This document shows, piece by piece, positions 29,547-48,077 of a stretch of DNA of 64,000 bases (position 1 is the stretch's first letter; every line of letters begins with the position of its first letter). A program made the translations under genes and the position numbers. Under the pieces are notes generated by a model, which was not told where the DNA came from, ran no database searches, and saw nothing but the letters and a program-made list of their open reading frames with translations. Origin of the DNA: Corynebacterium silvaticum (GTDB lineage: Bacteria > Actinomycetota > Actinomycetes > Mycobacteriales > Mycobacteriaceae); contig NZ_SDQO02000001.1 of NCBI RefSeq assembly GCF_004382825.2, positions 620,001-684,000 on the forward strand, written 5' to 3'.

Positions 29547-29560
29547 CCGTGTGATGGGCG

Positions 29561-29603
29561 AAGGCCTTGACCCCAGAGCAGATATTTCTGGGGTCAAGGC
29601 CTT
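29561..29603. terminator. Bidirectional terminator between hisS and sdaA
   Basis: Perfect 17-bp arms, AAGGCCTTGACCCCAGA and its complement, with a 9-base loop. It lies between convergent genes, 10-15 bases from each stop, and can serve both. Confidence 0.85.
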
Positions 29604-29612
29604 CAACTGTCT

Positions 29613-31019
29613 TTAGCACTCGGTGAGGTTCACTGGAAGTCCGAGGTTGGCTGCCAGGCCTCCCATGGAGGTCTCTTTGTACTTTGTGAGCATGTCTTTG
29701 CCGGTATCTGCCATTGTTTTCACGACTTCATCGAGCTTGAAGCGGTGAGGCCCGGTCTCAATAAGCGACAAGCGTGCTGCGTTGATAGATTTCACGCCGC
29801 CGATTGCGTTGCGCTCGATGCACGGAATCTGGACTAGGCCAGCCACGGGGTCGCAGGTGAGTCCGAGGTTGTGCTCAAGCGCTATTTCCCCTGCATGCTC
29901 TACCTGCTCAGGGGTTCCGCCCATGACTTGGCATAGTCCGGCTGCCGCCATAGCTGACGCTGAGCCGACTTCTCCTTGGCATCCGACCTCTGCGCCTGAA
30001 ATAGAAGCATTGAGCTTGATGATCACTCCTACCGCCGCTGCGGAGAGGAGGAAATCGCGGTGCCAATCAGCGGACAAGTCTTTGCGGAAGTCTCGGGCGT
30101 AGTGCATGACTGCCGGGATAATGCCGGCAGCTCCATTAGTAGGAGCGGTGACAATACGGCCGCCGGCAGCGTTTTCCTCATTGACTGCAAGAGCATAGAG
30201 GTTGACCCATTCCATTGCACGCAGGGTATCCTCGTGAGCGTTGTCTATGTCGCGGTGAAGATACTCGTGAAGCCCGGGTGCCCGGCGCTGGACGTTAAGA
30301 CCACCTGGCAAAATACCCGGTGTCTTAATTCCCTGGACTACGCATTCCTGCATAGCTTCCCAAACCGCATCAATGTGCTTGATGACGGGTGCAGCATCCC
30401 TATGGATTGCCACCTCGTTGGACATCATGATCTCTGCTACGGAAAGTCCGGATTGCTTGCATACAGATAGCAACTCATCGCCCGTGCGGAATCGATATGG
30501 CAGGGGATCGTCGGAAGTAACCCGAGACGTTGTGGATGCGCCAGAACCAAGGGGTTCTTGCTGTGCATGGAATTCCTGCTTAGTCAGGATGAATCCACCG
30601 CCGACGGAGAAGTACACCTCGGGTTCTGCCAGCTGGTTTCCCGTGGAATCATAGGCGATAAACGTCATCGCGTTGGGGTGCTCTGGAAGGGGCGTGGGAT
30701 CAAAAATAAGTTGGTAAGAGACGATGCCGTCGGGGCCAGTAACCGTGCCTTCAGTGGCTACTGGTTCGCCGAATGCTGGAGCGATGTCGGGGGTGGTAGT
30801 GGTTGGCTCATAACCTACAAGACCGAGTATGGTTGCGCGGTCAGTTCCGTGACCGACTCCGGTTGCAGCAAGAGATCCGTGCAACGTGACGGAAATTTTT
30901 GCGCCTAAGAGTTCTGGATGGGCGCTGGAAAAATGGTTCGCGGCGCGCATCGGTCCTACTGTGTGTGAGGACGAGGGGCCGATGCCGATACTGAACAAGT
31001 CGATGATGCTGATGGTCAT
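29613..31019 (-). CDS. sdaA: L-serine ammonia-lyase, iron-sulphur type, single chain
   Basis: 468 residues combining beta (about 1-165) and alpha domains. [15 protein letters not shown] is the serine-binding N-terminal motif. Cluster-ligand cysteines appear in [17 protein letters not shown] and [16 protein letters not shown], and the protein ends in TEC, the C-terminal Cys that reaches the active site in this family. It converts serine to pyruvate and ammonia. The ATG at 31019 has AAAGGAG 6 bases upstream. Confidence 0.95.
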
Positions 31020-44213: not shown

Positions 44214-44445
44214 CGTTGCCCTTCTGCGTTATTTTCGAGGGGACTCGGTGGTATTTGAGGGAGTCAAGCATGGAATCAGGACTGCGAGCGGGTAGAGTAG
44301 TAGCCCGACTGCCTAGATTCTTCCGCGTAGGGTGATGAAGGGCCTCATGAGGCGTGATGGTGTGTGATGCTGGATGCGTCGAAAAGCTGTTGCTGGCCTC
44401 GTGAGTATTACTAGATTCTTAAGACAACAAGCGAGGAACACTGCC

Positions 44446-47118
44446 GTGCAGACCCATGAAATTCGGGAACGCTTCACCAATCACTTTGTTAAAGCTGGCC
44501 ACCAGGCTGTGCCAAGTGCGTCGCTGATCTTGGATGACCCGAACCTGCTTTTTGTTAACGCCGGCATGGTTCCGTTTAAGCCATACTTCCTCGGACAACA
44601 GAACCCGCCATTCCCTAACGGCACTGCTACGTCGATCCAAAAGTGCGTGCGTACTCTGGATATTGAAGAAGTCGGAATTACCACCCGTCACAACACGTTT
44701 TTCCAGATGGCTGGCAACTTTTCTTTCGGCCAGTACTTTAAAGAAGGCGCGATTACCCACGCATGGTCGCTGCTCACGGAGCCCGTAGCCGAAGGCGGAT
44801 TTGGGCTTGATCCAGAACGCCTCTGGGTCACCGTTTATCTTGACGACGACGAGGCCGCCGATATCTGGAACAAAAAGATCGGCATCCCCGCAGAACGTAT
44901 TCAGCGGCTAGGGATGGCAGATAACTACTGGTCAATGGGTGTCCCAGGTCCTTGTGGCCCGTGCTCTGAGATTTACTATGACCGCGGTGCCGCATACGGC
45001 AAAGAAGGCGGCCCAATCGCCGACGATAACCGCTACATGGAGATCTGGAACCTGGTCTTCATGCAGAACGAGCGCGGTGAGGGAATCGGAAAAGACAACT
45101 TTGAGATTCTGGGCCCGCTGCCTAAAAAAAACATTGATACCGGCCTGGGCGTCGAGCGCGTCGCGTGCATTCTCCAAGGCGTAGACAACGTCTATGAGAC
45201 AGACCTGTTGCGTCCAGTTATTGATGTAGCAGAGAAGCTTACGGGTGCTTCCTATGGCGAGGGCGCACCGCAACAGGACCTTATCCGATTCCGCGTGATT
45301 GCGGATCATTCGCGCACTGGCATGATGCTGATCCTTGATGGCGTTACCCCAGGTAACGAGGGTCGTGGGTACATCTTGCGCCGTCTCCTGCGTCGTATCA
45401 TTCGTTCCGCGCACCTTCTTGGCGCCAAGGGCAATACCCTGGAACAATTCATGAACACCATCATGGATACGATGACTCCGTCTTATCCTGAGATCGCGGA
45501 CAACCGTGAGCGTATTCTCAAGGTTGCGCTTACAGAAGAGAAGGCCTTCCTTAAGACGCTTGCCTCCGGAACGCAGCTTTTTGAGGAAAAAGCAGACGAG
45601 GTGAAAACCGAGGGCAAGAAGCTTCTCGACGGCGCATCTGCCTTCAAACTGCACGACACTTACGGTTTCCCCATTGACTTGACTCTGGAAATGGCTGCTG
45701 AGGCTGGACTGGAAGTAGACACTGCTGGTTTTGATTCACTCATGGCTGAGCAACGTGCGCGCGCCAAGGCCGATAACCGGGCTAAGAAGCACGGACACGT
45801 GGATCTCAGTATCTACCGCGAGTGGGTAGACGAGCACCCGACCGAGTTCACGGGATATAGCGAGCTCAGCACGGAATCGAAGGTGCTCGGCATGATCGCC
45901 GGAGGAGCTAAGGTCCATGAGGTCGCCGCTGGTGATGAAGTCGAAATTATCTTGGAAGCCTCTCCGCTGTACGCCGAAGCCGGCGGTCAGATAGGAGACC
46001 GTGGCACAATCGTCATGGGCGATACCATAGTAAACGTCAACGATGTGCAGAAGATCGGCAAGAAACTATGGGTGCACAAGGCAACTGTGGCTCAAGGTGG
46101 ATTAAGCATCGGGGATACGGTTTCTGCGAACGTCGATAAGCAATGGCGCCATAGCGCGCGCCAAGCGCACTCGGCTACGCACTTGATTCACGCGGCACTG
46201 CGTGACGTGCTCGGTCCTACTGCAGTTCAGGCTGGTTCCCTGAACCGGCCAGGGTATCTTCGCTTTGATTTCAACTACACCGAAGCACTGACGGCTGAGC
46301 AGCTCGCACAAATCCAGTTGATCACTAATCAAGCTGTAGACGTTGACTGGGCTGTGAACACCATTGAAACCTCGCTTGATGAGGCGAAAGCTATGGGTGC
46401 TATGGCGCTGTTCGGTGAGAACTACGGTTCTACTGTGCGTGTTGTAGAAATCGGTGGCCCATTCTCAATGGAACTCTGCGGTGGAACTCACGTTGAGCAT
46501 TCCTCGCAGATTGGTCCGGTAGCTATCCTAGGTGAGGCCTCCGTGGGCTCCGGTGTGCGCCGTATCGAGGCATATTCCGGCCTTGACTCGTTCCAGTATT
46601 TGGCAAAAGAACGGGCATTGGTTGAAGGAATCGCTGCCTCGATGAAGGCCAAGACGGATGATGTTCCTGAGCGGATCGCATCTCTTACCCAGAAGCTCAA
46701 GGAGGCTGAAAAAGCCGTGGCCGATCTTCGCGCAGCGCAACTGCGTAACCAGGCCGCTACACTTCTGACGGACGCCGATGAGGTTAACGGAGTGACCGTT
46801 GTGGCCCATCGCTTGGCAGAACACGTTTCCAGCAATGATGTGCGTGCTTTGGCTATCGACCTGAAGTCACGCCTAGGAGATAAACCAGCCGTGATCGCTT
46901 TGATTGCGGAAGACGGCAGCGGCAAGACTCCATTTGTGGTTGCTGCAACGAAGGCTGGAGTCGCACAAGGCGTGAAAGCTAATGAGCTGGCCAAGGTGCT
47001 TGGTGGTTACATCCAAGGTAATGGTGGCGGTAAACCAGATATGGCTCAGGGGTCTGCGCGAGACATCGCGGGCTTTGATTCGGGTGTCGCGGCTGTTAAG
47101 GATGAAATCCGCAGCTAG
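44446..47118 (+). CDS. alaS: Alanine--tRNA ligase
   Basis: 890 residues. Catalytic core from QTHEIRERF to about residue 250, tRNA-recognition part, editing domain with zinc ligands [10 protein letters not shown] (HxxxH) and [10 protein letters not shown] (CxxxH), and the C-Ala domain with a coiled coil (about 715-760) and a Gly-rich end ([12 protein letters not shown]). GTG at 44446 has GAGGAA 8 bases upstream and gives the usual [10 protein letters not shown] start. It is followed by a promoter and a structured RNA before ruvX. Confidence 0.97.
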
Positions 47119-47147
47119 TAACGGTATAACGTCTGTGACGTAGATCG

Positions 47148-47153
47148 TATAAT
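47148..47153 (+). promoter_or_regulatory. -10 box after alaS, driving the candidate small RNA
   Basis: Perfect TATAAT 29 bases after the alaS stop. The predicted start, 7-8 bases later, coincides with the first base of a stable hairpin (47161). A similar TATAAC lies at 47125-47130. No good -35 is visible. Confidence 0.55.
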
Positions 47154-47160
47154 GCTGCAT

Positions 47161-47266
47161 ACAAGGCACTGGTCCCCAAGGAGATAAGGTCTCTCGGAAG
47201 GGTCGGTGCCTTGTGCATATGGCGGCGTGAGACTCTGGACCGGGGTCACGGAAAGCGCCATTTTAT
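47161..47266 (+). ncRNA. Candidate structured small RNA between alaS and ruvX
   Basis: Helix 1: ACAAGGCAC (47161-47169) with GTGCCTTGT (47206-47214), enclosing GGTCCCC, a GAGA/TCTC mini-stem and CGGAAGGG. Helix 2: ATGGCG (47219-47224) with CGCCAT (47256-47261), an inner CGTGA/TCACG (47226-47230 / 47246-47250), then TTTA. GGTCC in helix 1 can pair with GGACC in the loop of helix 2. A TATAAT box sits directly upstream, so this can be an independent RNA of about 105 bases ending at helix 2. It does not match SRP RNA, tmRNA, RNase P or 6C RNA by eye. The simpler alternative is a compound alaS terminator. Confidence 0.5.
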
Positions 47267-47483
47267 GGAACTACCTATGTGTGCAAACTTGAGATTGAAT
47301 TAATGATCGTTGGACGTTCCCGGTCACAAAAAGGTAACGTTGTTATGTCCCGTTCCATTCTTTGGAGCGCAGTCTTTGAGTGATTCGCCTTTTGTGCAGG
47401 TATACGCATTCTTTTTCTGAAGATGTTGTGGCGTGCATAGGTGGTTAGTCCAGGTTTTAGCTATAAGAGTTTAAAGGATACCT
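47267..47483. other. Intergenic stretch before ruvX
   Basis: About 215 bases with no gene seen on either strand. It ends in AAAGGA, the ruvX ribosome site. Confidence 0.4.
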
Positions 47484-48077
47484 ATGCCAATTACCCCCGA
47501 TACCCCTGGTATTGACGATCCTGGAAATGGACGACGACTGGGTATTGACGTAGGCACTGTACGAATCGGCGTGGCCGCATCCGATCGGGATGCTCGATTG
47601 GCGATGCCAGTGGAAACTGTTCCTCGTAAAACAGGCCTGAGAGATCGAGACCAGGGCGACATAGATCGGCTACTAGAGATTATTCGTGAGTACGCCGTGG
47701 TGGAAGTCGTAGTGGGACTTCCTAGAGACCTCAAGGGAAATGGCTCTAAGAGTGTCAAGCACGCCAAGGACATAGCTTTTAGGATTTCTCGACGCCTCCA
47801 GGCTTCCGAATCTTCGATTCCCGTACGGTTAGCTGATGAACGGCTCACCACGGTCGTCGCCACGCAAGCGCTTCGTGCTTCCGGCATTTCCGAGAAAATA
47901 GGGCGAAAAGTAATTGACCAAGCCGCTGCGGTAGAAATTCTACAATCGTGGTTGGATGGGCGACACGCGTATAAAGAGCGGAATGATATGGCAGGCTCGA
48001 CAGAAGACGGCTACACAGATGCTTCGGTCATTCCAGAGGCAGCTTTGAATCCAGAATCCCCGAACGAAAGGCGTTGA
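47484..48077 (+). CDS. ruvX: Putative pre-16S rRNA nuclease / Holliday junction resolvase RuvX
   Basis: 197 residues of the YqgF family. [20 protein letters not shown] holds the first catalytic Asp; [29 protein letters not shown] and [14 protein letters not shown] complete the RNase H-like fold. About 45 extra residues at the C-terminus are not part of the domain. AAAGGA lies 5-6 bases before the ATG. It is followed by mltG after 3 bases, the usual actinobacterial alaS-ruvX-mltG-aroE order. Confidence 0.93.

Follow-up and report, generated by a model that had tools for sequence, protein, structure and literature searches.

Hairpins behind alaS in Corynebacterium silvaticum: a putative terminator in front of a conserved ruvX upstream region

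The gap between alaS and ruvX in Corynebacterium silvaticum opens with a TATAAT box and two predicted hairpins, an arrangement that an earlier note on this DNA read as a free-standing structured RNA with its own promoter. We ask here what these hairpins are: an RNA that acts on its own, a regulated leader of ruvX, or a part of the alaS transcript. The window referred to throughout is the whole analysed stretch of 64,000 nucleotides (positions 620,001 to 684,000 of contig NZ_SDQO02000001.1), in whose numbering all coordinates are given. The two flanking frames, which we take to be alaS and ruvX, leave a gap of 365 bases, and the TATAAT and both hairpins lie within its first ~140 bases (Table 1).

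Table 1. Features of the alaS-ruvX locus in window coordinates
Feature	Position	Strand	Basis and remarks
alaS (alanyl-tRNA synthetase)	44374-47118	+	ORF list; same gene matched in related loci; hairpins adjoin its 3' end
TATAAT, possible -10 box	47148-47153	+	predicted start ~47161; reads TACGAT in G225, whereas G139 lacks the segment
Hairpin 1, long stem	47156-47217	+	compensatory changes preserve the fold in two relatives; candidate for the main hairpin of the alaS terminator
Hairpin 2 and TTTTAT end	47219-47266	+	weaker, fold not conserved in relatives; candidate for a second terminator in tandem, perhaps the more effective one here
ruvX upstream region, gap-free	47259-47483	+	87-91% identity in three species; probable promoter and 5' leader
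ruvX	47484-48077	+	ORF list and related loci; downstream gene

Predicted fold and comparison with known RNAs

The two helices proposed for this gap do fold as described. Hairpin 1 starts 38 nt past the alaS stop codon and is a GC-rich stem of -31.0 to -31.8 kcal/mol, with a continuous helix from 47161-47214 inwards; hairpin 2 spans 47219-47261 and is followed by TTTAT, the run of T consisting of 47262-47264 plus the paired base 47261. The segment 47158-47270 reaches -47.9 kcal/mol compared with -35.05 +/- 3.15 kcal/mol in shuffled copies (z -4.08), with one of 200 shuffles folding at least as well, and the z value is -2.77 for the interval chosen in the earlier note (47119-47280). A loop-loop pairing of GGTCC with GGACC, also suggested there, is not supported by this fold, in which most of both motifs sits inside helices; the counterparts in two related species (GTTCT/GAGCT and GG[C]TCT/GGGTT, by eye) do not restore Watson-Crick pairing.

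The size of hairpin 1 is ordinary because it ranks fourth by hairpin energy among 36 gene ends in the window, where genes were defined by a simple longest-ORF rule and ranks 1 and 3 represent a single inverted repeat read in either direction. Its stem is longer than that of a minimal terminator, yet not longer than others in the window, and the idea that this gap contains much more structure than a terminator needs loses its force in view of this ranking. A very strong inverted repeat is found elsewhere in the window, at 29547-29619 (-44.6 kcal/mol in one direction and -35.7 kcal/mol in the other); it lies between converging frames and is apparently a two-way terminator.

The earlier impression that the element matches none of the common RNA families agrees with Rfam, where no family reached its gathering score in the window and none matched positions 46900-47500 at E up to 10. 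This absence of a match distinguishes the element from the 5' leader elements found with Rfam in corynebacteria, which are likewise structured RNAs upstream of a gene (TPP, cobalamin, cspA, mraW and msiK, as named in the main text of PMC5784534). CoRP, the Corynebacterium RNA polymerase-binding RNA, is also a structured non-coding RNA of corynebacteria, but according to the main text of PMC11077062 it is located between tRNA genes and is cleaved into pieces of 318 and 198 nt; the present element, predicted at ~105 nt and flanked by alaS and ruvX, is set apart from it by location and size. The search for other copies in the element's own genome returned only matches of 17 nt or less, and PLSDB plasmids gave no match in distant mode. 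Among the literature matches listed, titles and abstract openings contain nothing on an alaS-ruvX element, and alaS and ruvX go unnamed in the main texts of two RNA-seq studies, on C. glutamicum (PMC3890552) and C. diphtheriae (PMC5784534), of an RNA polymerase pull-down study (PMC11077062) and of a small-RNA database paper (PMC8247434); their supplementary tables may list the element.

Conservation of the two hairpins

The hairpin region has clear blastn counterparts in two of the 241 other genomes of the genus, referred to as G139 and G225. The E values for the three genomes, the window's own included, are 1.3e-71, 1.8e-13 and 2.7e-8 (242 genomes searched), and 13 further matches of 17-32 bases (E 0.0135-0.0947) were taken as chance. 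A covariance model of both hairpins, run against the 242 genomes with stricter filters applied, recovered the three species plus an echo on the reverse strand of G139 (E 0.0016). Three further matches of the model, with E values per genome of 0.0035, 0.0078 and 0.031, are at about chance level for 242 genomes, and neither alaS nor ruvX was found by tblastn at any of these loci; the best match outside the three species (L148) is, by eye, a GC-rich hairpin ending in TTTT.

Between the three species the hairpin region is 65-70% identical, compared with 57-75% at four-fold synonymous sites of alaS and ruvX, which suggests that it drifts about as freely as those sites, that is, near-neutrally. Despite this drift the structure of hairpin 1 is kept and that of hairpin 2 is not. 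The fold energies of hairpin 1 are -31.8, -36.1 and -32.7 kcal/mol across the three species. Its pairs were counted in a structural alignment made by hand, which covers 18 basal positions and leaves out the apical part: 15 positions are paired in all three species, of which eight are unchanged, four changed on one side, three changed on both sides and none broken, and the remaining three consist of two pairs inserted in G225 and one bulge that is paired in G139. When the observed substitutions were placed at random (2000 trials per comparison), equal stability of hairpin 1 was reached in 0-0.1% of trials in the four comparisons with a relative as the target, and in 3.9% and 4.75% in the two with the window as the target. 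Because of the compensatory changes, and because random placement so rarely keeps the stability, the fold of hairpin 1 is probably under selection, as judged from these sequence comparisons. RNAalifold, applied to a MAFFT alignment of both hairpins, found changes on both sides in 5 of 36 consensus pairs; in the same alignment 11 of the 36 are broken in at least one species and part of G225 is misplaced.

An apparently better conservation of the apical loop than of the stem (9 of 14 versus 17 of 57 columns, P 0.03, in alignment A4) was discarded as an alignment artefact. In A4 one arm of G225 is displaced by one base, and the better alignment A2 has 9 of 14 versus 21 of 40 invariant positions (P 0.54).

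The energy of hairpin 2 is -16.5 kcal/mol in the window compared with -8.4 and -6.9 kcal/mol in the relatives, where it is no stabler than randomly changed versions (fractions 0.33-0.71); the window's copy is somewhat stabler than random (fractions 0.04 and 0.06). All three species have TTTTAT at its end. Compensatory changes in relatives, which the earlier note had named as a check on its proposal, are thus present in hairpin 1, whereas the fold of hairpin 2 is not conserved in the two relatives.

The alaS end and the TATAAT box

Gaps between alaS and ruvX were collected from 113 loci (83 + 30), mostly named or placed as Corynebacterium, and comprise 97 distinct sequences, 30 of which, mycobacterial ones included, are shorter than 60 nt. 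For each of the 67 gaps of 60 nt or more, the most stable hairpin within the first 130 nt was compared with 20 shuffles; in 37 gaps it was more stable than every one of them (mean -29.7 kcal/mol versus -20.4 kcal/mol shuffled). In the other 30 at least one shuffle folds as well, and these include the window (one of 20 shuffles is as good as hairpin 1); the two relatives, with 0 of 20 each, belong to the 37. By eye, several gaps, for example L082, L086 and L119, contain textbook terminators whose sequences bear no relation to that of the window. A strong hairpin immediately following alaS is a common feature.

We therefore consider it probable that hairpins 1 and 2 are a putative terminator of alaS, probably a tandem one, that insulates a ruvX gene with its own promoter in 47259-47483. 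RNA polymerase leaving alaS would transcribe a long GC-rich hairpin, stall and release, and ruvX would start from its own promoter inside the conserved stretch. If selection acts on folding alone, the sequence would drift near-neutrally and paired positions would change together. The likeness to an intrinsic (Rho-independent) tandem terminator consists of a GC-rich hairpin behind a gene, a drifting sequence and a T-rich end of the arm in the relatives; the differences are the poor T-tail after hairpin 1 and the TATAAT in front of it.

The T-tail of hairpin 1 is poor in this species: after the GC core, its 3' arm reads TTTT in both relatives, bases that the predicted fold pairs with the 5' arm, and TTGTG in the window, with tail scores of 3.52 and 3.78 in the relatives versus 2.28 here. 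Neither hairpin was listed in a terminator scan requiring at least five T in eight positions. Because the window has TTGTG where the relatives have TTTT, and because hairpin 2 is stronger here and has TTTTAT, the working hairpin may have shifted; perhaps hairpin 2 with its TTTTAT does the terminating in this species, the release point having presumably moved there from hairpin 1.

The long double-stranded stem would also suit a 3' untranslated stabiliser or an RNase III processing site of a transcript reading through from alaS into ruvX, two genes that are close in some species (the 30 of 97 distinct gaps below 60 nt). As described in the main text of PMC3890552, transcript ends at predicted terminators in C. 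glutamicum lie mostly inside the first stem, and cleavage of double-stranded RNA is one reason offered for this, which fits such a reading. Nothing in the present data separates it from a terminator, but the T-rich arm ends of the relatives would not be needed, and we assign it only the slightest probability.

The proposed -10 box, a perfect TATAAT, is present and is placed as expected: with a spacing of 6-9 nt, transcription would start near A47161, which lies 7 nt after the box and is the first base of the continuous helix. In C. diphtheriae this spacing is 6-9 nt with a mean of 6.9 (main text of PMC5784534). No -35 box was seen for this TATAAT, and a two-hexamer promoter scan did not list it. 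G225 has TACGAT at the same position; in G139 the segment with the TATAAT is missing, the hairpin starts 9 nt after the alaS stop codon, and the sole TAnnnT seen nearby by eye overlaps that codon. In these two relatives, then, a promoter of its own is not kept together with the RNA. The window contains fewer TATAAT boxes than expected (7 versus 13.35), and four of the seven fall in gaps of at least 100 nt, which account for 9.6% of its length (P 0.002, post hoc). Since a perfect box lies directly before hairpin 1, and in view of this enrichment in gaps, the TATAAT may be a real promoter, from which a short RNA or a leader of ruvX may be transcribed in this species.

What stands of the free-standing structured RNA is accordingly the conserved fold of hairpin 1, but not a TATAAT shared by the relatives, and an alaS terminator is the better fit for the position, the size, the freely drifting sequence and, in the relatives, the T-rich arm ends. 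A separate small RNA of ~57-105 nt, running from A47161 to an end after hairpin 1 or hairpin 2 and acting alone, is favoured by the perfect box at the right distance from where the helix begins, the TACGAT at the same place in G225, the rarity of TATAAT in the window together with its enrichment in gaps, and the conserved fold of hairpin 1. We nevertheless regard it as unlikely: G139 lacks the box though it keeps hairpin 1, the sequence drifts near-neutrally, the element is single copy in its own genome with confident matches in three species only and at the same place, and no seed stands out because the apical part is kept no better than the rest of hairpin 1 in alignment A2. A far more speculative version, to which we attach very little weight, is a short hairpin RNA with its own promoter of which only the shape is selected; it would bind a protein (RNA polymerase or an RNase) and tune ruvX or other genes in a few corynebacteria.

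The conserved region upstream of ruvX

The region 47259-47483 (225 nt) is better kept in the three species than synonymous sites and is probably the ruvX promoter and 5' leader, a putative assignment. A search with the part just upstream of ruvX found the same three genomes, with the relatives at 89 and 91%; a 25-nt match in G120 was judged to be chance, since the large frames at that locus look like other genes. A first view of this conservation as exceptional had to be toned down, since, of the 22 other gaps in the window that reach 100 nt, four are conserved at least as well in both relatives (judged by the best-conserved stretch, 200 nt at most, with genes defined by the longest-ORF rule, so that small genes may sit in gaps). 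No long frame with a coding-like pattern was found in the conserved region. A tiny frame at 47265-47303 (MELPMCANLRLN, 12-13 residues) has two synonymous and zero amino-acid changes in the three species, too little for a coding claim at such a length.

Two sequence elements may be relevant to ruvX transcription. The first, GGTAACGT at 47333-47340, is invariant in the three species, resembles GGTAACAT in G039 (L114) and is a possible candidate for the -10 box of ruvX. The second is the motif ACACGCC, mostly as GACACGCCG, which occurs upstream of ruvX in 31 of the 67 distinct gaps that reach 60 nt (for example L023, L025, L028, L049 and L129) and is absent from the window's gap. In L025, L026 and L028 it is closely followed by a TATGTT-like box, and it is possibly a shared operator or promoter element.

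The TATAAT, the hairpins, the conserved region and ruvX share one direction, and it is therefore conceivable that transcription starts at the TATAAT, that the hairpins stop most of it, and that some signal lets a part through to ruvX. A consensus multibranch fold with 75 pairs is predicted for the conserved region, which also contains a locally stable domain in columns 127-184 of alignment A3 (z -2.9, -4.6 and -4.3 against shuffles in the three species; -1.8, -3.7 and -2.1 for columns 9-213); both would fit such an attenuated leader. However, only one of the 75 pairs is changed on both sides and the covariation term is unfavourable, columns 45-123 are no stabler than shuffles (z -0.7, -1.3 and -0.3), the high conservation of the region is matched by other gaps, the promoter is not common to G139, and no antiterminator pairing was noticed. 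We consider attenuation of ruvX improbable, slightly more so than a small RNA. Taken together, the small RNA and the ruvX attenuator retain a minor though not negligible share of our expectation, mainly because the TATAAT may be active and such boxes are enriched in gaps; an active box would make the element either a small hairpin RNA or an attenuator of ruvX.

The hairpins resemble a routine stop signal behind alaS more closely than a new regulatory RNA. A strong fold with a -10-like box in an intergenic gap may thus be a fast-drifting terminator, and the study of these hairpins directs attention to the better conserved stretch just downstream, which adjoins ruvX.
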